This document shows, piece after piece, positions 4,613-36,730 of a stretch of DNA of 47,042 nt. Made by a program: the position numbers and the translations under genes. The notes beneath the pieces were generated by a model. That model was not told the DNA's origin. It ran no database searches and saw only the letters and a list, made by a program, of their open reading frames with translations. How positions within the stretch are numbered: the stretch's first letter is position 1; each line of letters starts with the position of its first letter. Origin of the DNA: Dehalococcoidia bacterium (GTDB lineage: Bacteria > Chloroflexota > Dehalococcoidia > UBA2979); NCBI GenBank assembly GCA_009692765.1, contig SHYQ01000004.1:1-47042 (forward strand), read 5' to 3'.

Positions 4613-4946
4613 GAGCCCACCCCCCGGTCCCCTCCCACTGCGCGGGAGGGGAAGAAGAAGGAGCAGTGCATGCGAGGGGGCTGCGCCCCTCGCGCTCCCG
4701 GCGGAGGCGTGCGCAGCAGGCGCGCGCCGGAACGGGGACGAAGAGAACGCGGACCGCTGATTCAGGACCCTCGCCAACGTCAGTGGGAGCGGGGAGGGCG
4801 AGGGCGCACCACGCGTCGGTGGGCGGTGCGGGCAGGGGCGCACCCTGGACGGGCGTCCGAGGGAGCAGGGGCCCATGGGGGCGCAGCCCCCATAAACAAG
4901 AACCCCCTTCCCGCGTCGGGAAGGGGGCAGGGGGATGGGCCGCCCC
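4613..4946. repeat. Composite palindromic repeat cluster R1
   Basis: This fills most of the 472-bp gap 4587-5058. The left arm CCCCTCCC (4629-4636) pairs with GGGAGGGG (4644-4651). The conserved module GCGAGGGG (4672-4679) pairs with CCCCTCGC (4686-4693). A variant ATGGGGG/CCCCCAT hairpin lies at about 4874-4892. The right arm CCCCCTTCCCG (4903-4913) pairs with CGGGAAGGGGG (4917-4927) and is followed by CAGGGGGATGGGCCGCCCC. The G-rich right arm (4918-4939) fits a G-quadruplex motif. Long open frames through it look like repeat-driven artefacts. It is one of three copies in a co-directional gap, downstream of the Agl23-like gene. No gene is seen in this gap. Confidence 0.85.
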
Positions 4947-5058
4947 GCGCACACCTCGACGCCGCGCGCCGTGCTTCGAGGTGACGCGCGCGGCGCGATG
5001 CCCGAGACTGGCTCGACGGGGCGCACGAGGATCGCAGCGGACGGGCGAGGGGCTGCCG

Positions 5059-7481: not shown

Positions 7482-8027
7482 GCGCGCAACCGTCGGTGGA
7501 GTTGCGGACGGCGCGGCTGCTCCTCCGTCCGTTCCGCGCGGGCGATGCTCCCGATGTGTTCGCCTACGCAAGCGACCCCGAGGTCGCCTTCTTCGCGAAC
7601 GACGCTCCCCCCCTGACGATCGAGGGTGCGCGGAAGTTCGTCGAGCGCGCACTGGCGACACCATGGTCCGAGCGCCAGCGGTTCGCGATCACGGTGGACA
7701 ACGCCGTCATCGGCGCGGTCGATCTTCAACCGGACTGGCCGAACGCCTCGGCGAACGTGGGTTACGAGGTGGCGCGGACGCACTGGGGCCAGGGCATCGC
7801 GACAGAGGCGACCGAGGCCGTCGTCCGCTACGGCTTCGAGGTGCTCGGGCTCGCTAAGATTCACGCCCGCGCCGATCCGAGGAACGCAGCCTCGATGCGG
7901 GTGCTGGAGAAGATCGGCATGTCGCGCGAGGGGCTGCTCAGGAGCCACCTCGTCCGGCGCGGCGAGCGCGTGGATCAGAGTGTTGTACGGCATCCCGCGC
8001 AGCGAGTGGGAGGCCCGCACAAGGTAG
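7478..8027 (+). pseudogene. GNAT acetyltransferase (RimJ-like) with a C-terminal frameshift
   Basis: From GTG 7478 the frame encodes an acetyltransferase of the Acetyltransf_3 type: VELRTARLLLRPFRAGDAPD, then VARTHWGQGIATEATEAVVR (acetyl-CoA loop), then NAASMRVLEKIGMSREG. At GERVDQ (7976-7978) the frame goes wrong. Skipping one base, A7979, restores VLYGIPRSEWEARTR and a stop at 8025-8027, exactly the ending expected for this family. Without the skip the frame runs past 8122 into nuoE. The 550-bp length is one more than a multiple of three. This is a single-base insertion, recoding or a sequence error. Only the last 15 or so residues are affected, so the product might still fold. It is the last gene of the + run from 274. 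Confidence 0.75.
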
Positions 8028-8050
8028 GACACCGTCGGCTACGCCGCGCC

Positions 8051-8079
8051 TTGAGCGCCCTCCGAGGCGCCCCTATAGT
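8051..8079 (+). promoter_or_regulatory. Probable sigma70-type promoter of nuoEF
   Basis: TTGAGC (8051-8056) and TATAGT (8074-8079) are separated by exactly 17 bp. Transcription would start near 8086, about 36 bp before the nuoE ATG. It lies in the 94-bp gap after the frameshifted GNAT gene. Confidence 0.6.
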
Positions 8080-8121
8080 GGCCGGAGCGCCACACACGCC
8101 CGCAGCAGCGAGGGGCCGCCG

Positions 8122-10840: not shown

Positions 10841-11320
10841 TCGAGGACTGATGGGCGCGGCTCATCCCCCTGCCCCCTTCCCGGCGCGGGAAGGGGGTTC
10901 CGAAAGCAGAAACAGAAAGAGGTGCGAGGGGGCTGCGCCCCTCGCGCTCCCGGCGGAGGCGTGCGCGGCAGGCGCACGCCGGAGCGGGGGACGCGACCCC
11001 GGCCCGTTCAGAACCCCCTCCCCGCAGGGGGAGCGGGCAGGGTGAGGCGCGCCTGCCGCGCGCCGTTCCACCGGGAGCGCGAGGGGCGAGCTTCGACGAC
11101 TGCCCGGCCGTGCGACACAGGCGCACACCGGAGCGGGGGACGCGACCCTGGCCCGTTCAGAACCCTCTCCCCGCAGGGGGAGCGGGCAGGGTGAGGCGCG
11201 CCTGCCGCGCGCCGTTCCGCCGGGAGCGCGAGGGGCGCAGCCCCCTCGCAACCAACTCTCCTCATCTTGAACCCCTCCCGCGCCGGGAGGGGGCAGGGGG
11301 CGGGCCGCCCCCGTCAGTCC
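10841..11320. repeat. Composite palindromic repeat cluster R2 with an internal 117-bp direct duplication
   Basis: This fills the 540-bp gap between the convergent lipoprotein and CHAP genes. The outer ends are inverted: GGACTGATGGGCGCGGC (10845-10861) against the reverse complement of 11304-11320, two mismatches in 17. Left hairpin: CCCCCTTCCC (10873-10882)/GGGAAGGGGG (10888-10897). Right hairpin: CCCCTCCCG (11272-11280)/CGGGAGGGG (11284-11292). Inside, 10972-11088 and 11121-11237 are direct repeats of 117 bp with four mismatches. The GCGAGGGG module occurs once forward (about 10924) and once inverted (about 11229-11250). No gene is seen here. Confidence 0.85.
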
Positions 11321-12176: not shown

Positions 12177-14951
12177 GTGGCCACGTCTCCGCGCTCCAGC
12201 ACCGGCGGCTCCGCGCGCTCTGGCGCCCACACGCCCGCGCGGCAGCAGTACCTCGATCTCAAGGCGCAGCACCCCGACGCGCTCCTGCTGATCCGCATGG
12301 GCGACTTCTACGAGACCTTCGACGCCGACGCCGAGACGGCGGCGCGCGTGCTCGGCATCGTGCTGACCTCGCGGCCGATGGGCGGCGCCGCGGGTGGGGC
12401 GGAGGCGCGCGTGCCGCTCGCGGGGATCCCCCACCACCAGCTGGAGCGCTACCTCGACCAGCTGGTGGCGGCGGGGCTGCGCGTCGCGATCGCCGACCAG
12501 ACCAGCGTGCCGCCGTCGAAGGGGGGCGCGCCGGGGCTCGTGGAGCGGCGGATCACGCGCGTCGTGACGCCGGGGACGGTGGACCGCGGGGCGCTGCTCA
12601 CCGAGCGCGGCAACAACTGGCTCGTCGCGATCGCCCCCGTCGGCGCCCCCGCGGGCGAGGCCCCCGGGGAGGGCGCGCGCTGGGGGCTCGCCGCGTGCGA
12701 CGTCACCACCGGGGAGCTGGAGCTCTCGCTGGCCGCCACGGAGGCGCTGGCGGGCGAGTGGGCGCGCCTCGCGCCGCGCGAGGTGCTGCTGGCCGAGGGC
12801 ACGCCGGCGACGGTGCTCGCCGCCGCGCTGGGGGCGCTGCCCGACGGGGCGCTGCGCACGGAGCGGCCGGCGCGCGAGTTCCGGCCCGACCGCGCGACGG
12901 CGGCGCTGGCGGAGCGGCTCGGCGTCGCCAGCCTCGAGGGGTACGGGCTCGAGGCCTTCGCGGCCGCCGTGGGCGCGGCGGGCGCGATCGTGGCGTACCT
13001 CGCGGCGACGTGGCCGCAGGCGCTGGCGCACCTGCGCGCGCCGCGCGCGGTGCGCGCCGCGGACGTCGTCTACCTGGACCCGCAGACGCGGCGGAACCTG
13101 GAGCTCTTCGCCCCTTCAGCGGGCGGAGGCGCACCGGGCGGAGGCGCGGCCGGCGCGGGCTCGCTGGTGGAGACGCTGGACCGCACGCTGACGGCGATGG
13201 GGGCGCGGCTGCTGCGCGCGCGCCTGGGGCGGCCGCTGCGCGCGGCGGCAGCGGCCGACGCGCTGCTGGACGAGGTGGCGGCGTTCGTGGACGCGCCGCT
13301 GCCGCGCAGCGCGCTGCGCGGGGCGCTGCGCGGCCTGCCGGACTTCGAGCGGCTGCTGGGGCGCGTGCGCGCCGGCAGCGCGGGGGCGCGCCAGCTGGTG
13401 CAGCTGCGGCGCGGGCTGGAGGCGCTGCCGGCGCTGCGCGCGCGCGCCGTGGAGGCCGGCGCCGCCGCCGCGGCGATGGCGCGCGGGCTCGCCGGGGGCG
13501 GCGAGGCGGCGGCGGCGATCGCGGCGGCGCTGGACGACGACCCGCCGGCGGAGGTCGGCGAGGGCGCGACGGTGCGCGACGGCTTCGACGCGGAGGTCGA
13601 CCGGCTGCGCGCGCTGGCCAGCGGCGCGCGCGACGCGCTCGCCGCGCTGGAGACCGCGGAGCGCGCGCGCAGCGGCATCGCCACGCTACGCGTCGGCTAC
13701 CACCGCGTCTTCGGCTACTACCTCGAGTGCGGGCGCGGGCAGGCGGAGCGCGCGCCGGCGGACTACGAGCCGCGCCAGACGCTGGCGAACGCGCAGCGCT
13801 TCCGCTTCGCGGCGCTGGCCGCGCTGGAGACGGAGATCCTCGGCGCGAAGGAGGCGCTGCTCGAGGCGGAGCGCGGCGTGCTCGACCGCGCGCGGGCGCA
13901 GGCGGCGGCGGCGGGCGCCGAGATCGAGCGCGCGGCGGCGGCGGTGGCGCGGCTGGACGTAGCGGCCGCGCTGGCCGAGGCCGCCGCGGACGGCGGCTAC
14001 GTGCGCCCGGAACTGGCCGAGGGCGGCGCGATCGTGATCGAGGGTGGCCGCCACCCGGTGGTGGAGCGCGGCCTGCCGCGCGGCGCCTTCGTGCCGAACG
14101 ACGTGTCGCTTGGCGGCGGGGCGGGCGGCGGGATGGGCGGCGGGGCCGACATCATCGTGCTCACGGGGCCGAACATGGGCGGGAAGTCCACCTACCTGCG
14201 GCAGACGGCGCTGATCGTGCTGATGGCGCAGTGCGGCGTCTACGTGCCCGCGACGCGCGCCCGGGTGGCAATGGTCGACCGCATCTTCTCGCGGGTGGGG
14301 GCGCAGGACGACATCGCGTCGGGGCGCTCGACGTTCATGGTGGAGATGCTCGAGACCGCGACCATCTTACATAACGCGACAGAGCGGTCGCTGGTGATCC
14401 TGGACGAGGTCGGGCGAGGCACCGCCACCTACGACGGGCTGGCGATCGCGCGCGCCGTGCTCGAGCACCTCCACCACCGGCCCGGCGGGACGCCGAAGAC
14501 GCTGTTCGCGACGCACTACCACGAGCTGACGGCGCTCTCCGGCACGCTGCCGCGCGTGGCCAACCGCGCCGTCGCGGTGCGCGAGGAGGAGCAGGAGATC
14601 GTGCTGCTGCACCGCGTCGTCGAGGGCGGCGCGGACCGCTCGTACGGCGTGCACGTGGCGGCGCTGGCGGGGCTGCCGCGCCCCGTGGTAGCGCGCGCGC
14701 GCGAGTTGCTCGCCGACCTCGAGGCAGCACCGCTCGCTGGAGCGTCCGCCGCGCCGTCCACGGGGGGGCGCGGCGCAGCGCGCGCGGTGGCGGCGGGCGC
14801 GCAACTGGCGCTGGTGGCGGCGGCGGCGGACGAGGCGCTGCTGCGCGAGCTGGCAGCGCTCGACGCCGACGCGCTGACGCCGCTCGCGGCGCTCCAGCGG
14901 CTCTACGAGCTGCGCGCGGCGGCGCGCCGCCGGCTGGGCGTCGAGGGATGA
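12177..14951 (+). CDS. mutS: DNA mismatch repair protein MutS
   Basis: 924 residues from GTG 12177. The N-terminal mismatch-binding domain has RMGDFYETFDADAETAARVL, containing the Phe-x-Glu reader motif, and PLAGIPHHQLERYL. The ATPase has Walker A TGPNMGGKS (about 663-671), the ST(K)YLRQ follow-on, DDIASGRSTFMVEM, Walker B LVILDEVGRGTATYDG, and FATHYHEL. The C terminus ends PLAALQRLYELRAAARR, as in full-length MutS. It recognises mismatches and recruits MutL, whose gene lies 1.9 kb downstream beyond an opposite-strand protease. Slightly longer than typical because of Ala/Gly-rich inserts. Complete and probably functional. Confidence 0.96.
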   Translation: MATSPRSSTGGSARSGAHTPARQQYLDLKAQHPDALLLIRMGDFYETFDADAETAARVLGIVLTSRPMGGAAGGAEARVPLAGIPHHQLERYLDQLVAAGLRVAIADQTSVPPSKGGAPGLVERRITRVVTPGTVDRGALLTERGNNWLVAIAPVGAPAGEAPGEGARWGLAACDVTTGELELSLAATEALAGEWARLAPREVLLAEGTPATVLAAALGALPDGALRTERPAREFRPDRATAALAERLGVASLEGYGLEAFAAAVGAAGAIVAYLAATWPQALAHLRAPRAVRAADVVYLDPQTRRNLELFAPSAGGGAPGGGAAGAGSLVETLDRTLTAMGARLLRARLGRPLRAAAAADALLDEVAAFVDAPLPRSALRGALRGLPDFERLLGRVRAGSAGARQLVQLRRGLEALPALRARAVEAGAAAAAMARGLAGGGEAAAAIAAALDDDPPAEVGEGATVRDGFDAEVDRLRALASGARDALAALETAERARSGIATLRVGYHRVFGYYLECGRGQAERAPADYEPRQTLANAQRFRFAALAALETEILGAKEALLEAERGVLDRARAQAAAAGAEIERAAAAVARLDVAAALAEAAADGGYVRPELAEGGAIVIEGGRHPVVERGLPRGAFVPNDVSLGGGAGGGMGGGADIIVLTGPNMGGKSTYLRQTALIVLMAQCGVYVPATRARVAMVDRIFSRVGAQDDIASGRSTFMVEMLETATILHNATERSLVILDEVGRGTATYDGLAIARAVLEHLHHRPGGTPKTLFATHYHELTALSGTLPRVANRAVAVREEEQEIVLLHRVVEGGADRSYGVHVAALAGLPRPVVARARELLADLEAAPLAGASAAPSTGGRGAARAVAAGAQLALVAAAADEALLRELAALDADALTPLAALQRLYELRAAARRRLGVEG

Positions 14952-15014
14952 GTGCGCGTCGAGGGATGGGTGGGCGGGGCGGGGTGAGCGCGCCTCGCGG
15001 GGCCGGTCGCCTCC

Positions 15015-15169
15015 ACTCCCGCGTGCGCCTGCCGCGCACGCCTCCGCCGGGAGCGCCTCCGCCGGAAGAGCGAGGCGCGCAGCCCACTCGCATCACCTGC
15101 TGCTGTCGGAACCCCCTCCCGCGCAGGGAGGGGGCAGGGGGTGGGCCGCGCCCCGCGTGCCTCGACGCC
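15015..15169. repeat. Composite palindromic repeat cluster R3 (short form)
   Basis: This lies in the 245-bp convergent gap between mutS and the subtilase. It contains the inverted form of the conserved module (CCTCCGCCGGGAGCG near 15041-15055, then CGAGGCGCGCAGCCC) and one right-type arm: CCCCCTCCC (15112-15120) and GGGAGGGGG (15126-15134) followed by CAGGGGGTGGGCCGCG. The left C-rich arm seen in other copies is missing or decayed. The outer end CTCGACGCC (15161-15169) matches the ends of R1 and R6. Confidence 0.75.
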
Positions 15170-15196
15170 ACGCGCGCGTCGCGCGAGGCGCGCGGC

Positions 15197-16627
15197 TCAG
15201 CGCGGGGCGGGGCCGGGCGGGGCGCCGGCGTCCCCGGCGCGCGTCGCGCCGGGGACGCCGGCGCGATAGAGCGGCGCCTCGAGCGCCGCGCCGATGTCGA
15301 GCAGGCCGGGGTCGCCGGGGAGCGCGCCGGGCTGGCGGCTGTTCAGCAGCAGCATGCGCAGCAGCGGCGCGGCGGCCTCCGGGAAGCGCGCGCGCAGCAG
15401 CGCGGCGGCGCCCGCGACGATCGGCGTGGCGAAGGAGGAGCCGCTGGCGGAGGCGTAGGGGCCGTCCGTGCAGATCCAGCCGTGCGTGCCGCAGAACTCG
15501 CGCGGCACCGCGCTGAGCACGTTGACCCCCGGCGCCATGACGTCGACGGCGCCGAAGTTCGTGAAGGCGGCGAGTGCGCGGTAGTCGATGCCCGTCGGGC
15601 CGACGCGTCCGCTGGCGGCGACCGAGATTACGCCGGGGTAGGCGGCGGGATAGGTGATGCCGGGGCGGCCGTCGTTGCCGGCGGAGGCGACGACGAGCGC
15701 GCCGCGCGCCTGCGCCTCCAAGATCACCTCGCGCAGCACGAGCGAGTCGTTGGTGGTGCCGAAGGAGACGTTGATCACGTGCGCGCCCATGCGCGCGGCG
15801 TAGCGGATGCCGGCGGCGGCGTCAGCGATGCGGCCGGTGGCAGTGCAGTCGAGCACCTTGACGGAGAGCAGCCGCGCCTGCCAGGCGACCCCCGTCATGC
15901 CGGTGGCGTTGTCGCCGGCGGCGGCGGCGAGGCCCGCGACGAAGCTGCCGTGGCCGTCGTCGTCCCAGGCGCGCGCGTTGGGCGGCGGCACGTCGTAGCC
16001 GCAGTCGGGGTCGGCGGTCGCCAGCGTGACGAAGTTGCACCCGGCGAAGTCGGCGACGCAGCCGTTGCCGTCGTCGTCGCGGCCGGACAGCGGCTGCTCG
16101 CGCGGGTTGCGGTAGATGCGCTCGCGCAGGTCGGGGTGATCGAAGCCGATGCCGGTGTCGATGATCGCGATGAGCACGCCCACCCCGCCGGTGGAGATCT
16201 CCCACGCCGCCGGCGCGCGGATCACCTCGAGGTAGCCGGACTGCCGCGCGTACATCGGGTCGTCGGGGAGGCGGGCGGCGCGCACGATGGCGTCCGGCTC
16301 GACGCCGCGCGCGAGCCCGCTGGCGGCGAGGCGCGCCGCCAGCGCGGTGGCGTCGCCGCCGCGCGGGACGCGCACGCGCACGGCGGCTTCGCCGGCGCCC
16401 GGGCGCAGCGCGTCGAAGCCGGCGGCGGCGAGCCGTGCGTGCGCCGCGGCGACGTCGAGGCCGCGCGCCGGCGAGACGAGCACGACGTCGGTGTCCGCCG
16501 GGACCGGGAACAGCTCGACGCGGCGCGCGGCGGCGTCCGCGGAGCGCGCGGCCGGCGCAGCGTTGTGCGGCGCGAGCACGGCGAGCACCGTGGCTCCGCG
16601 GGGCGCGGGGTCGTGCGGCGCGAGCAC
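15197..16627 (-). CDS. S8 family subtilisin-like serine protease, probably secreted
   Basis: 476 residues from the first canonical start (GTG, 16627). The catalytic triad is visible: D157 in AIIDTGIGFDHPDL, H226 in DDDGHGSFVAG, S398 in SGSSFATP; the oxyanion Asn is in VVASAGNDG. Residues 36-117 resemble an inhibitor-like prodomain. Several Cys pairs in and near the catalytic domain suggest disulfides and export. In the same frame directly upstream (about 16628-16675) is a clear signal-peptide-like stretch, LLRLSALVALAAVAVLA, but no ATG, GTG or TTG precedes it before the stop at 16748-16750. Either a non-canonical start is used, or one base is wrong or shifted. The gene sits between mutS and mutL on the other strand; no functional link is implied. 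Confidence 0.88.
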   Translation of the reverse strand: MLAPHDPAPRGATVLAVLAPHNAAPAARSADAAARRVELFPVPADTDVVLVSPARGLDVAAAHARLAAAGFDALRPGAGEAAVRVRVPRGGDATALAARLAASGLARGVEPDAIVRAARLPDDPMYARQSGYLEVIRAPAAWEISTGGVGVLIAIIDTGIGFDHPDLRERIYRNPREQPLSGRDDDGNGCVADFAGCNFVTLATADPDCGYDVPPPNARAWDDDGHGSFVAGLAAAAGDNATGMTGVAWQARLLSVKVLDCTATGRIADAAAGIRYAARMGAHVINVSFGTTNDSLVLREVILEAQARGALVVASAGNDGRPGITYPAAYPGVISVAASGRVGPTGIDYRALAAFTNFGAVDVMAPGVNVLSAVPREFCGTHGWICTDGPYASASGSSFATPIVAGAAALLRARFPEAAAPLLRMLLLNSRQPGALPGDPGLLDIGAALEAPLYRAGVPGATRAGDAGAPPGPAPR

Positions 16628-16815
16628 GGCGACGGCGGCCAGCGCGACGAGCGCGGACAGGCGGAGCAGACGCGGCGGCGCGTGGCGCTGGGTAGCGATC
16701 GTGTCCCGCCCGTCTGGGGAGGCCGTGGTGAAAGGCTCGCGCTCATGCTAGCCAGCGGCCGATCGGCGGGCAACCGCGCGGGCCGAGTCCGCCGCGCCCC
16801 GGTGCGGGGGACGCG

Positions 16816-18624
16816 ATGACCGCGCCCGCGCCGCCGCGCCGCCCGCAGCCGCGCGCGCGCATCGCCGTGCTGCCGCCGGAGGTGGCGGCGCGCATCGCCG
16901 CGGGCGAGGTGATCGAGCGCCCGGCGAGCGTGGTGAAGGAGCTCGTCGAGAATGCCATCGACGCCGGCGCGGCGCACGTCGCAGTGGAGATCGTCGGCGG
17001 CGGCGGCGACCGCATCCGCGTCAGCGACGACGGCTGCGGCATCCCGCCGGAACAGGTGGCGGACGCCTTCGAGCGCCACGCGACCTCGAAGCTGCGCAGC
17101 GAGCACGACCTCTTCGCGGTGCGCACGCTCGGCTTCCGCGGCGAGGCACTCGCCGCGATCGCCGCGGCGGCGGAGGTCGACCTCGTGTCGCGGCCGGCGG
17201 GGCAGGACGCCGCCGCAGCGGCGCACCTGCGCGACGGCCGCCTCGAGCGCGTCGGGAGCGCCGCGGCCGCCCCCGGCACCAGCGTCGAGGTGCGCGAGCT
17301 GTTCGCGGCGCTGCCGGCGCGGCGGCGCTTCCTACGTCCGCCGCGCGCGGAGGCGCGCGCGGTCGTCGAGCTGATCGCCGCGCTCGCGCTGGCGCACCCG
17401 GAGGTCGCGTTCCGGCTGGTGAGCGACGGGCGCGTCGCGCTCGCGTCGCCTGGCACGGGCGACCCGCGCGACGCCGTCGCGGCGGTGCACGGCGTGGAGG
17501 TCGCGCGCGCGCTGGTGCCGGCCGGCGCGCGCCGCCAGGAGGCGGACGGCGCGGCCGTGGACGTGACGGCGCTGGTCGGGCCTCCGTCGCTGCACCGCGG
17601 CAGCCGCGGCGCGATCCACCTCGTCGCGAACGGGCGCACGATCGGCTCGCGCTCGATCGCCTACGCGATCGAGCAGGCGTACGCCGGGCTGATCCCGGCC
17701 GGCCGCCACCCCGTCGCGATCGTGCGTATCGACGTCCCGCCGGAGCAGATCGACGTGAACGTGCACCCCACGAAGGCGGAGGTGCGCTTCCGCCACGAAC
17801 GCCTCGTCTACGCCGCAGTCGCCGAGGCCGTGCGCGGCGCGCTGACGGACGCGCCGATCGCCTTCGCGCCGCTGACGGCGGGCGCGTGGCCCGCGCGTGG
17901 CGCGAGGGAGGCGCCCTCCGAGCACGCGGAGGATGACGGCGCGGCGGGCGCGGCCGGGCGCGCGGTGATCGCAGGCGCGCGGCCCGCGCCGATCTTCGCG
18001 CCACCGCTGACGATGGCGGCTGGGGCAGCGCAGGCGGGGCTGGCGATCGAGGCGCGCACGCCGGCGCTGCGGCCGCTCGGGCAGATCGACCGCACCTACC
18101 TGGTCGCCGAGAGCGCGGATGGGTTGTACCTCGTCGACCAGCACGCGGCGCACGAGCGCGTGCTGTACGAGCAGGCGCTGGCGGCACGCGCGGCGGGGAG
18201 GCCCGCATCGCAGCCGCTGCTCGCGGCGCTGGCCGTGCCGCTGTCGGCGTCGCAGGCCGCGCTCGCGGCGGCGGAGGCGGAGGCCCTCGCGGCGATCGGG
18301 TGGGAGGTCGCGCCGACCGACGGCGCGGCGGTGCTGCTGCGCGCGGTGCCGGCGGCGCTCGCCGGGCGCGACGCCGCCGCCGCGCTGCGCGACTACCTCG
18401 ACCGGCTCGACGCGGAGGAGCGCCTCACCGGCCCGGACCGCGCCGCCGCGACGCTCGCCTGCCGCGCGGCGGTGATGGCGGGCGACCCGCTCGACGGCGA
18501 GCAGCAGCGCGCGCTGCTGCGGGCGCTCGAGGCCTGCGCGACGCCGCACACCTGCCCCCACGGCCGCCCGACGATGCTGCACCTCAGCCGCGCCGCCCTC
18601 GAGCGCTCCTTCGGCCGGCGGTAG
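16816..18624 (+). CDS. mutL: DNA mismatch repair protein MutL (endonuclease type)
   Basis: 602 residues. The N-terminal GHKL ATPase has IAAGEVIERPASVVKELVEN, DDGCGIP, RHATSKL and TLGFRGEALAAI. A variable linker follows near residues 340-410. The C-terminal domain has DQHAAHERVLYE at 441-452, the DQHA-x2-E-x4-E metal site of endonuclease-active MutL, together with ACRAAVMAG and CPHGRP (about 580). Organisms with this form generally lack MutH and nick the new strand with MutL itself. Its 3' end faces the convergent pterin-binding gene across the 63-bp-TIR repeat R4. Confidence 0.95.
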   Translation: MTAPAPPRRPQPRARIAVLPPEVAARIAAGEVIERPASVVKELVENAIDAGAAHVAVEIVGGGGDRIRVSDDGCGIPPEQVADAFERHATSKLRSEHDLFAVRTLGFRGEALAAIAAAAEVDLVSRPAGQDAAAAAHLRDGRLERVGSAAAAPGTSVEVRELFAALPARRRFLRPPRAEARAVVELIAALALAHPEVAFRLVSDGRVALASPGTGDPRDAVAAVHGVEVARALVPAGARRQEADGAAVDVTALVGPPSLHRGSRGAIHLVANGRTIGSRSIAYAIEQAYAGLIPAGRHPVAIVRIDVPPEQIDVNVHPTKAEVRFRHERLVYAAVAEAVRGALTDAPIAFAPLTAGAWPARGAREAPSEHAEDDGAAGAAGRAVIAGARPAPIFAPPLTMAAGAAQAGLAIEARTPALRPLGQIDRTYLVAESADGLYLVDQHAAHERVLYEQALAARAAGRPASQPLLAALAVPLSASQAALAAAEAEALAAIGWEVAPTDGAAVLLRAVPAALAGRDAAAALRDYLDRLDAEERLTGPDRAAATLACRAAVMAGDPLDGEQQRALLRALEACATPHTCPHGRPTMLHLSRAALERSFGRR

Positions 18625-18660
18625 CAGCGCGCGCGAGGGCGTCGCGGCGGGTGCTGCGTG

Positions 18661-18977
18661 GCGATCGCGTTGCTTGCGCGGGGCGGCCCACCCCCTGCCC
18701 CCTCCCGGCGCGGGAGGGGGTTCTGAAACAGCAGGGGATTTCTCCCATCCCCCCGGCCCCCTTCCCTCCGGGAAGGGGGAGTTCGCCTCGACGCTTCGCG
18801 CGAGGGATTGGAGGGAGGCGCCCGCCCGTCTTCGCTCCGGCGTGCGCCTACCGCGCGCGCCTCCGCCGGGAGCGCGAGGGGCGCAGCCCCCTCGCACCAA
18901 CGTTCCTCATTCTGGAACCCCCTCCCGCGCCGGGAGGGGGCAGGGGGTGGGCCGCCCCGCGCAAGCAACGCGATCGC
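18661..18977. repeat. Palindromic element R4 with 63-bp perfect terminal inverted repeats
   Basis: 18661-18723 and 18915-18977 are exact reverse complements over 63 bp, enclosing 191 bp; the match continues outward for a few more bases with mismatches. Each arm itself holds a hairpin (CCCTCCC/GGGAGGG type) and the CGGCCCACCCCCTGCCCCC string. Between them are a second hairpin, CCCCCTTCCC (18757-18766)/GGGAAGGGGG (18770-18779), and the inverted conserved module ending CGCAGCCCCCTCGC (about 18881-18894). The whole 317-bp element fills most of the convergent gap 18625-19033 between mutL and the pterin-binding gene. There is no ORF that could be a transposase. It is MITE-like in shape; no target duplication is evident. 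Confidence 0.9.
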
Positions 18978-19033
18978 CGCGCATCACCGCGAGGGCGCCG
19001 CCCGCACGGTCATCGACGCCTGCGCGGTGCGCG

Positions 19034-19939
19034 CTACCCCAGCGGCACGAAGATCGCGCGCGCGGCTTCCATCAGCGTGAGCGGGGGCTTCGGCGTGGGG
19101 GCGTCGCGCGCGACGGCGTCCGCCAGCTCGAGCAGCCAGCGTTCCTCGGCGGTGGCGGGGGGGAGCGCGTGGCCGGCCACGCGCACGGCGCGCACCACGG
19201 CGGGCTCCTCGACGGGGAGCAGCAGCGCCGTGGCGCCCGCGCCCGTCGCCGCGGCGGCGTAGACGACGCGCAGCGCGGCGGCCAGGGCCGCCGGCGCCGC
19301 TGCGCCGGCGTTGCCCACCGCCGCGAGGCGCTCGACGTTCGGCACGGCGCGCAGCAGGCGCAGCACCGCCAGCGAGCGGCGGCAGCCGTCGGGGTCGATG
19401 AGCGCCGGGTAAGTCAGCGCGTCGAGGTAGAGCGGCTCGTTGAGGCCGGCCTCGCGCGCGCGGATCGCCCCCGCGACGGCGGCGTCCACGACCGCCTGCG
19501 CGCTGGCGGCCGCCTCGCCGCCACCGTCCACGAGACGCGGCGAGACGACCAGCGCGGCGCGCGCGCGCACGACCGCGCGCAGCAGCCCCGCGACCGCATC
19601 GTCGTCGACGCTGCCGGGCGGGCCGCCGACCGGCAGCGCGTTCGCCGCGAGCGGGCGCGGCACGCCCTCGCGCTCGCACAGCTCGAAGGCGAGCGCGATC
19701 GTCGCGGGGGAGGCGGTATCGAGGAACAACGGCCGCCCGTACGTCGCCGGCCGGATCGCCTCGGCGATCCACGCGAGATCGATCGCCGCGCCGCCGACGC
19801 CGGCGTTGAGGTCGAGCGCGTCCGCGCCGGCGGCGAGCTGCGTCTCGGCGCGCGCGATGATCGGCGCGGCGTCGCGCGCGCGCAGCGCCGCCGCGAGCGG
19901 CTCGCGGTGGAACTCGAGCGACTGTCCGATCAGCAGCAC
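19034..19939 (-). CDS. Pterin-binding methyltransferase-like protein (MetH/AcsE/DHPS superfamily)
   Basis: 301 residues if the GTG at 19939 is the start; the frame continues upstream only through repeat R5. The opening VLLIGQSLEFHREPLAAALRARDAAPII and GADALDLNAGVGG follow the layout of methyltetrahydrofolate-binding TIM barrels (IIGERIN...GADxLDVNxG). The first motif is unusual: the G-E-x-I-N stretch is GQSLEF here. Later strands include RPLFLDTASPATIALAFEL and NALPVGG, where AcsE-type proteins keep Asp and Asn contacts. Possible roles are a corrinoid methyltransferase or a B12-dependent methionine synthase module. No corrinoid protein is adjacent. Function is uncertain; the fold is fairly sure. 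Confidence 0.65.
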   Translation of the reverse strand: MLLIGQSLEFHREPLAAALRARDAAPIIARAETQLAAGADALDLNAGVGGAAIDLAWIAEAIRPATYGRPLFLDTASPATIALAFELCEREGVPRPLAANALPVGGPPGSVDDDAVAGLLRAVVRARAALVVSPRLVDGGGEAAASAQAVVDAAVAGAIRAREAGLNEPLYLDALTYPALIDPDGCRRSLAVLRLLRAVPNVERLAAVGNAGAAAPAALAAALRVVYAAAATGAGATALLLPVEEPAVVRAVRVAGHALPPATAEERWLLELADAVARDAPTPKPPLTLMEAARAIFVPLG

Positions 19940-20027
19940 GAGGGTACGGTAGCCAGCGCACGCCCCCGGGGCGAGCGTGCGCTTGGCCTCGAGGCAGCGC
20001 GCCCGTGCGGTGTGCCCGTGGGGAGGA

Positions 20028-20660
20028 GACCCACCCCCCGGCCCCCTCCCGCTCCAGCGGGAGGGGGAGAGGAAGAAGCATGAGGATGCGAGGGGGCTGC
20101 GCCCCTCGCGCTCCCGGTGGAACGGCGCGCGGCGGGCGCGGCTCGGAGCAGAGGGGGCGGCGCGCTCCCACATCAGAACCTCTCGCCGCCCCGGCGGAGA
20201 GGGGCAGGGGCAAGGCTCCCTTCCCGGCGCGGGAAGAGGGTTCTGCCAGAGCAGAGGGTGATGCGAGGGGGCTGCGCCCCTCGCGCTCCCGGCGGAACGG
20301 CGCGCGGCGGGCGCGCCTCGGAGCAGAAGGGGCGGCGCGCTCCCGCGTCAGAACCCCTCGCCGCCCCGGCGGAGAGGGGCAGGGGCAAGGCCCCCTTCCC
20401 GGCGCGGGAAGGGGGCCAGCAGGGAAGGTGGCTTCCACCCATCCCCCCGGCCCCCTTCCCGCGCGGGAAGGGGGAGCTGGCGAGAGCGTTGCGCGCCTCG
20501 CCCCAGACCCGCAGGCGAAGCCTCCCGCTCGCGATCCGGCGTGTGCCTACCGCGCACGCCTCCGCCGGGAGCGCGAGGGGCGCAGCCCCCTCGCATCTCC
20601 CTCCGTTTCCGACCCCCCTCTCCCGCTCCGCGGGAGAGGGGACGGGGGTAAGGGTCCCGC
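20028..20660. repeat. Composite palindromic repeat cluster R5 with 153-bp tandem duplication
   Basis: This fills the 755-bp gap 19940-20694 between two - strand genes. Left hairpin: CCCCCTCCCGC (20042-20052)/GCGGGAGGGGG (20057-20067). Direct repeats: 20088-20240 and 20263-20415, 153 bp, about eight mismatches, each starting with the GCGAGGGG module and ending with a CGGCGCGGGAAG-type hairpin. A further CCCCCTTCCC hairpin lies near 20454-20473. The inverted module is near 20567-20596, and the right hairpin is CCCCTCTCCCGC (20615-20626)/GCGGGAGAGGGG (20630-20641). A reverse-complement copy of the 153-bp unit is in R6 (about 23264-23420). No gene is seen here. Confidence 0.85.
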
Positions 20661-22954: not shown

Positions 22955-23498
22955 GGCGTCGAGGTGCTGCGTGGGGCGGCCCACCCCCTGCCCCCTCCCT
23001 CGCGGGAGGGGGTTCAGATTCCAGAAGGAAATTTCTCCCATCCCCCAACCCTCTTCCCTGGCGGGAAGGGGGCTCGGACCTCGGCGCTACGCGAGAGTGC
23101 TCGGACGAGGCAGCGCGAGGGGCGGGCGCGAGCGCCGAGCGGTGAGCCGTGCCGCAGCGCGGCCGCGCTTTCAGATCCCGCGAGGCGAAGCTCTCGCGGA
23201 TCCCCCTTCCCGGTGGGAAGGGGGCCGGGGGGATGGGCGATCTCAACTTCTGGTCTCGGAACCCCCTTCCCGCGCCGGGAAGGGGGCCTCACCCCTGTCC
23301 CTCTCCGCCGGGGCGACGAGGGGTTCTGACGCGGGAGCGCGCTGCCCCCTCTGCTCCGAGGCGCGCCCGCGGCGCGCCGTTCCGCCGGGAGCGCGAGGGG
23401 CGCAGCCACCTCGCATCACCCGCTGCTCTTGCAGAACCCCCTTCCCGCGTCGGGAAGGGGGCAGGGGGATGGGCCGCCCCACGCAGCACCTCGACGCC
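22955..23498. repeat. Composite palindromic repeat cluster R6 with 29-bp outer inverted ends
   Basis: This fills the 651-bp convergent gap 22895-23545. The outer ends 22955-22983 and 23470-23498 are exact reverse complements over 29 bp, and beyond them the arms continue as similar hairpins: CCCCCTCCC (22991-22999)/GGGAGGGGG (23004-23012) on the left and CCCCCTTCCCG (23437-23447)/CGGGAAGGGGG (23451-23461) on the right. Two further hairpins lie at 23202-23224 and 23262-23286, and a degraded one near 23050. About 23264-23420 is a reverse-complement copy of the 153-bp unit of R5. No gene is seen here. Confidence 0.88.
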
Positions 23499-24619: not shown

Positions 24620-24748
24620 CTGCACTCCCCCTTCCCGCCGGGAAGGGGGCCGGGGGGATGGGAGGATACCCCTCTGTTCCTATACTCCCCTTCCCGCGAA
24701 GGGAAGGGGCAGGGGGATGGGCCGCGCCGCTCAGTCCTCGAACGCCGC
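24620..24748. repeat. Palindromic repeat cluster R7 (two hairpins)
   Basis: This is in the 254-bp co-directional gap 24533-24786. Hairpin 1: CCCCCTTCCC (24627-24636)/GGGAAGGGGG (24640-24649), followed by CCGGGGGGATGGG. Hairpin 2: CCCCTTCCC (24687-24695)/GGGAAGGGG (24701-24709), followed by CAGGGGGATGGGCCGCG and, inverted, the TCGAGGACTGA outer end shared with R2 and R8 (about 24730-24740). Only G-rich right-type arms are present; the GCGAGGGG module is missing. Confidence 0.8.
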
Positions 24749-29072: not shown

Positions 29073-29390
29073 TCGAGGACTGAGCGGCGCCCGCGCCGGG
29101 CGCGTCGAGTTGGGCGCGGGGGCGGCCCTTCCCCCTGCCCCCTTCCCGGCGCCGGAAGGGGGGACTTCTTTCTTGTGGGGGCTGCGCCCCCACGGGCCCC
29201 GCGCCACGAAGCGAGCCGCCATCGGGTCGGTGCACCTGGAGCGATCCGAGGAGCCCATCGCCCCGCGCCCCTCCGAGGCGCGCCCACCGCGCGCCGTTCC
29301 GCCGGGAGCGCGAGGGGCGCAGCCACCTCGCATCATCCTCTCGCGCGCCGTACAGCAGCCGGACGTGCGCAGGGGGCCCGGAGGCCCCCT
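29073..29390. repeat. Composite palindromic repeat cluster R8
   Basis: This lies in the 370-bp convergent gap 29047-29416. The outer end is TCGAGGACTGA (29073-29083), shared with R2 and R7. The left arm is CCCTTCCCCCTGCCCCC leading to CCCCCTTCC (29138-29146)/GGAAGGGGG (29154-29162). A TGGGGG/CCCCCA hairpin lies near 29175-29191. An inverted conserved module (GTTCCGCCGGGAGCGCGAGG, then GCGCAGCC) lies near 29297-29325. A small GGGGGCC/GGCCCCC hairpin sits near 29373-29391. The G-rich right arm is absent. No gene is seen here. Confidence 0.78.
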
Positions 29391-36554: not shown

Positions 36555-36730
36555 TCGACAAGCTGCGGGGGGCGGCCCACCCCCTGCCCCCTCCCTGCGG
36601 GGGGGGGGTGCAGGAATCGGAAGTGATGCGAGGGGGCTGCGCCCCTCGCGCTCCCGGCGGAGGCGTGCGCGGTAGGCGCGCGCCGCGGTGGCGCTCCACC
36701 CGGCCCCTCGCTTGCGAGGCAGGCGGAGGG
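36555..36730. repeat. Palindromic repeat cluster R9, last copy in the window
   Basis: This is in the 374-bp convergent gap 36493-36866. Left arm: GGGCGGCCCACCCCCTGCCC, then CCCCCTCCC near 36588-36596 whose partner has become a run of G (36599-36608), so the hairpin is damaged. The conserved module GCGAGGGG (36628-36635)/CCCCTCGC (36642-36649) and CGGCGGAGGCGTGCGCGG follow. No right arm is seen. Farther right, 36777-36802 holds a 7-bp inverted repeat (GGCCAGA/TCTGGCC) unrelated to the family. No gene is seen here. Confidence 0.78.

Follow-up and report, generated by a model that had tools for sequence, protein, structure and literature searches.

What is the long inverted repeat that lies in the gap behind mutL in this window, by which we mean the whole 47,042-nt stretch of DNA analysed? 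The preliminary description had reported perfect inverted arms here and proposed either a non-autonomous mobile element or a structural element of its own kind. The arms are present at that place, with an exact span one base longer on each side than reported: they measure 64 nt each (18660-18723 and 18915-18978) and have 191 nt between them. Allowing two mismatches extends them to 74 nt at 97% identity (18650-18723 and 18915-18988). Among exact inverted repeats with a spacing of up to 1 kb, this is the longest in 307 kb of the genome; the second-longest, of 40 nt, belongs to the same repeat family. The folding energy of the element lies 15 SD (RNA) and 19 SD (DNA) below dinucleotide shuffles. 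The upstream gene (16816-18624) had been correctly assigned as mutL, the naming being backed by MutL_C and DNA_mis_repair domains. On its 5' side follow a subtilase gene on the opposite strand and then mutS. The order of these three genes (12177-18624) is conserved in G001, G002 and G003, and a peptidase gene is thereby kept between two mismatch-repair genes, mutS and mutL, in genus mates. The convergent neighbour of mutL (19034-20173), which has no Pfam match at E 1e-5, stays beside mutL in G001 and G002 (47% identical).

The element is a full-length copy of a modular interspersed repeat and not a lone object. A search of its own draft genome (1.26 Mb in 67 contigs, 76% complete) returned 134 matches. 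Allowing up to three mismatches, a 29-mer from the core of module C has 94 sites in the genome, 49 on the forward and 45 on the reverse strand; 45 of the 94 are exact. The reversed control pattern has 0 sites. A structural element standing alone is not supported: roughly a hundred related copies exist. Mapping with profiles revealed a fixed module order, P> - B> - spacer - C> - P<, in which module P is the arm, B adjoins one arm and C adjoins the other, with C and P mostly 9-17 nt apart. The mutL-gap copy comprises the following features.

18632 to 18645, forward strand: candidate left flanking direct repeat, a 13/14 match with 18988-19001; a lead only
18650 to 18659, no strand: outer extension of the left arm, with 2 mismatches against 18979-18988
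18660 to 18723, forward strand: left arm of the exact 64-nt inverted repeat, module P forward
18665 to 18674, forward strand: left terminus TCGCGTTGCT, at the site of the family terminus TCGAGGTGCT; private to the mutL-gap copy
18698 to 18720, no strand: hairpin CCCCCTCCCGGCGCGGGAGGGGG within the left arm
18735 to 18796, forward strand: module B, CCCATCCCCCCGGCCCCCTTCCCTCCGGGAAGGGGGAG hairpin
18836 to 18899, forward strand: module C, the most conserved core of the family
18874 to 18895, forward strand: GCGAGGGG/CCCCTCGC hairpin of module C; paired changes preserve the stem in genus mates
18915 to 18978, reverse strand: right arm of the exact 64-nt inverted repeat, module P reversed
18918 to 18940, no strand: hairpin CCCCCTCCCGCGCCGGGAGGGGG within the right arm
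18964 to 18973, reverse strand: right terminus, the same private variant as on the left
18979 to 18988, no strand: outer extension of the right arm
18988 to 19001, forward strand: candidate right flanking direct repeat; a lead only

Across the family, each arm terminates in a sequence of the TCGAGG type; next come TGCT or ACTGA and, after these, GGGGCGGCCCA. The sequence outside the terminus cannot be aligned between copies, and the same terminus and design are found in genus mates. Copies with both ends are mostly 252-317 bp long, with two composite ones of 467 and 518 bp; they are too short to hold a transposase gene. Clusters that have a single end (C>P<) or are mosaics are also numerous. 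Scored against the family profile, P modules do better in two-ended copies than in one-ended ones (42.3 vs 36.1 bits, p = 0.016), a difference that would follow if mobility belonged to the two-ended form; the scores of module C show no such difference.

Ten clusters of the family lie within the window. Besides the mutL-gap copy they include the following, none with an assigned strand.

4670 to 4951: module pair C and P in a tandem gap of 472 bp; two genus mates have gaps of 97 and -1 bp here
10849 to 11315: family cluster in a convergent gap
15021 to 15156: family cluster between the convergent mutS and subtilase genes; three genus mates have 9-42 bp there
20085 to 20597: family cluster in a tandem gap of 755 bp; the gap is 3 bp in G002
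22968 to 23485: two-ended family cluster in a convergent gap
24623 to 24733: family cluster in a tandem gap
29119 to 29335: family cluster in a convergent gap
36564 to 36684: C-P unit in a convergent gap

Some of these clusters contain repeats of their own. Two 156-nt direct copies of family modules (20085-20240 and 20260-20415) lie in the same intergenic gap and are 95% identical, and a 201-nt stretch at 23262-23462 is an inverted relative of the same copies at 94%; together they represent a local duplication within the family. A further direct duplication, of 129 nt at 95% (10960-11088 and 11109-11237), lies inside another family cluster. One gap of 640 bp (7482-8121), in which no modules were detected, is 123 bp long in G001.

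The 3' gap of mutL is 409 bp long in the window genome. In G001, of the same genus, the mutL stop overlaps the end of the convergent neighbour (a gap of -4 bp); in the genus mate G005 the gap is about 30-40 bp and free of the element; and in G017, of the same family, it is about 0. At least two genus mates and one genome of the same family therefore have an empty gap, the outcome that the preliminary description had proposed looking for. That description had named, as a refutation, the presence of the element at this place in every relative, which is not what we found. The genus mate G002 has a gap of 261 bp with a P>C< copy, in which C stands beside the left arm instead of the right, and this suggests a separate insertion. 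At three more syntenic gaps that bear elements in the window genome (245, 472 and 755 bp), genus mates that keep the gene pair have element-free gaps of -1 to 97 bp. Gaps without elements are mostly of the same size across genus mates. This pattern of presence and absence points to insertional spread and is the main evidence for mobility, in a comparison between different species (MutL about 75% identical) that leaves exact junctions unreadable. About 100 bp of the mutL gap lie outside the element, and insertion alone does not account for them.

The repeat is found chiefly in the taxonomic family to which the window belongs: each of the five genus mates searched has it, as do several other genomes of that family. 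Of 245 genomes drawn from across the class, just 12 matched at E <= 1e-6, seven of them within that family; the remaining matches, outside it, are mostly short stretches. Neither viral contigs (exact 26-mer) nor plasmids (blastn) matched the element. For MutL itself, the closest named relatives come from draft genomes of Chloroflexi and Dehalococcoidia, at about 43-47% identity, which makes an uncultured lineage within or close to Dehalococcoidia the most likely host.

We conclude, with a probability of roughly 0.8, that the element is a complete member of a family of modular, non-autonomous mobile repeats, MITE/BIME-like and about 250-320 bp in length. The earlier suggestion of a non-autonomous mobile element is supported by its many copies, by the shared terminus that acts as a boundary, and by its absence from the orthologous gap in relatives. 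Its terminal inverted repeats (module P) with a TCGAGG-type terminus, each with a GC-rich hairpin, enclose an asymmetric core, with B beside one P and C beside the other. The unit spreads by insertion, as the presence and absence in relatives shows, presumably mobilised in trans by a putative enzyme recognising the P ends. As the placement of the sampled clusters shows, copies persist mainly 3' of stop codons and above all between convergent genes, where they probably do least harm; over time they would decay to one-ended or nested fragments. At mutL, a copy may have been inserted into a gap of nearly zero length, and its arms would either be of recent origin or have been copied from one another by way of the hairpin. 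A side effect at the RNA level is conceivable, with a long 3' stem blocking read-through or 3' exonucleases.

The genomic placement of the family was assessed in 307 kb of contigs, with genes called by a purpose-written codon-usage gene finder. None of the 67 clusters has its midpoint in a gene, in a sample of which 82% is coding. The clusters account for 4.2% of the sequence sampled and for 23% of the non-coding DNA in it, densities that are approximate, as the contigs were not a random sample and were picked partly for length and for the presence of copies. Convergent gene pairs are occupied in 31 of 52 cases, tandem pairs in 24 of 181 and divergent pairs in 7 of 51. The excess in convergent gaps is strong relative to both divergent (Fisher p = 1.6e-6) and tandem gaps (p = 8.7e-11). 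Within tandem gaps, clusters lie at a median of 65 bp from the upstream stop but of 148 bp from the downstream start.

Such a bias is what a functional RNA structure at gene 3' ends might display, and instead of a parasite the element could be a bidirectional terminator or an mRNA-stabilising stem that selection maintains in convergent gaps. The very stable fold agrees with this, as does the C hairpin, in which two base pairs differ on both sides from one species to another and yet still pair (8 cells vs 3.8 in shuffles). The covariation fits a hairpin that matters; it involves few changes and reads alike for an RNA and for a DNA role, as hairpins needed as DNA would yield the same signal. Against the RNA role, no U-tailed terminator (a GC stem with a T run) was found in 18400-19300, and module C has no significant strand preference in tandem gaps (gene strand 8, opposite strand 14). 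A search for promoter-like sites at the element found none. Rfam gave no match to a known structured RNA at the gathering threshold anywhere in the window. The orthologous gaps in relatives do without the element, and the same convergent bias of the BOX, RUP and SPRITE repeats and of IS elements of Streptococcus pneumoniae has been read as tolerance (PMC3049150). We therefore consider a selected RNA function unlikely as the explanation of the element. The best reading of its placement is that it is tolerated, and perhaps used, at gene 3' ends.

The enzyme that would mobilise the repeat was sought among five transposase families. Y1_Tnp, DDE_Tnp_1, rve, TnpB-type (Cas12f1-like_TNB) and Transposase_mut were all absent from its own 76% complete draft genome, so the Y1/RAYT or DDE partner that had been suggested was not found there. 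No transposase of these five families was found beside the elements. Around the transposases fetched from relatives, out to 1.5 kb, modules P, B and C could not be placed with confidence; a weak C match (E 0.011) lies near one of them, in L264. Over ten two-ended copies there was no consistent signal of a target-site duplication, which a palindromic TCGA could hide. The flanking direct repeat of the mutL-gap copy (13/14, shuffle p = 0.008) serves as a lead only.

A repeat independent of any transposase is an explanation that we regard as quite improbable. A hairpin-ended DNA module would here be spread, and its arms kept identical, by host replication or repair (fold-back copying, arm-to-arm conversion) with no dedicated recombinase in the lineage, and would by now provide a 3'-end structure for most convergent gene pairs.

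Very little probability attaches to a REPIN or BIME proper, that is, a doublet of inverted REPs moved by a RAYT (Y1 transposase). The inverted pair of hairpin modules, the high copy number, the extragenic location and the better conservation of two-ended copies all resemble such elements. Y1_Tnp is, however, missing also from the draft genomes of five genus mates, in a search whose control was positive in five reference genomes. In addition, arms of 50-64 nt and a core of 191 nt exceed REPs of 20-40 bp, and the termini are of the TCGAGG type, not GTAG or CGTC.

The identity of the two arms raises a separate question. The preliminary description had taken it to imply recent formation or continuing correction. 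In other copies the two arms are usually 68-86% alike, and over nine copies arms resemble each other within a copy about as much as between copies (0.795 vs 0.780, permutation p = 0.10), so a general homogenisation across the family is not significant. The mutL-gap copy is an outlier in the within-copy comparison, with an arm likeness of 0.955. In place of the TCGAGG terminus of other copies, its two arms have GATCGCGTTGCTTGCG, a string that was not found elsewhere in the sequence examined. Because the arms share this private terminus, the simplest inference is that they formed recently or that one served as the template for the other, as template switching at the hairpin could bring about. 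Recent formation or correction is thus plausible for the mutL-gap copy, but does not extend to the other copies.

The shared private terminus and the slightly extended flank might also be taken to mean that the whole object is a lone palindrome, created at the mutL locus by template switching during replication (an inverted duplication) and with no link to mobility. This reading is mostly refuted, and we give it scant credence: the arms and the core alike consist of sequence typical of the family, arranged in its usual order, and template switching accounts for the identity of the arms, not for the presence of the element. It survives as an addition to the mobile-repeat reading, for arm homogenisation. 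An assembly artefact of a metagenome bin, conceivable in so incomplete a draft, is scarcely credible, since the flanking genes are unique and keep their order in relatives, and separately assembled relatives carry elements of the same design.

A miniature repeat of high copy number in an uncultured Dehalococcoidia-like lineage of Chloroflexota thus takes up about a quarter of the sampled non-coding DNA and sits in most of the sampled convergent gene gaps. It matters for annotation, for strain typing and for the reading of 3' ends in these genomes. Its mobilising agent is the point of general interest, because none of the usual enzymes tested was found. A literature search on such repeats in Chloroflexi and Dehalococcoidia, outside which most subscription papers fell, returned nothing relevant.

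Among known systems, ERIC (IRU) sequences are extragenic imperfect palindromes of 100-300 bp. The mutL-gap family is likewise extragenic, imperfectly palindromic and of the same size class, but belongs to another phylum and has a modular P-B-C build; this comparison is by description only. The BOX, RUP and SPRITE repeats of S. pneumoniae are also short, multi-copy, intergenic and enriched between convergent genes; BOX is modular, and BOX and RUP fold with their terminal inverted repeats paired (PMC3049150). They come from another phylum with no known sequence relation, P, B and C are not boxA, B and C, and BOX has a proposed IS partner, whereas none was found for the mutL-gap family. In REPINs and BIMEs, two inverted palindromic modules form the better-conserved unit and one-ended copies look like remnants (PMC3116915). 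An inverted hairpin pair is the conserved unit here too (P> ... P<, with better P scores in two-ended copies), but the arms and core are longer, the termini lack the GTAG or CGTC tag (PMC3733652) and the draft genomes yielded no RAYT. Because the terminal tag and the RAYT were both looked for and not found, we do not class the family as a REPIN. With bacterial MITEs it shares terminal inverted repeats, the lack of a transposase gene, a length of 250-320 bp, many copies and empty sites in relatives; it is not classed as a proven MITE because neither a consistent target duplication nor a parent insertion sequence was found. The element represents a family that is new but of a familiar kind, namely modular, non-autonomous repeats that are MITE/BIME-like.
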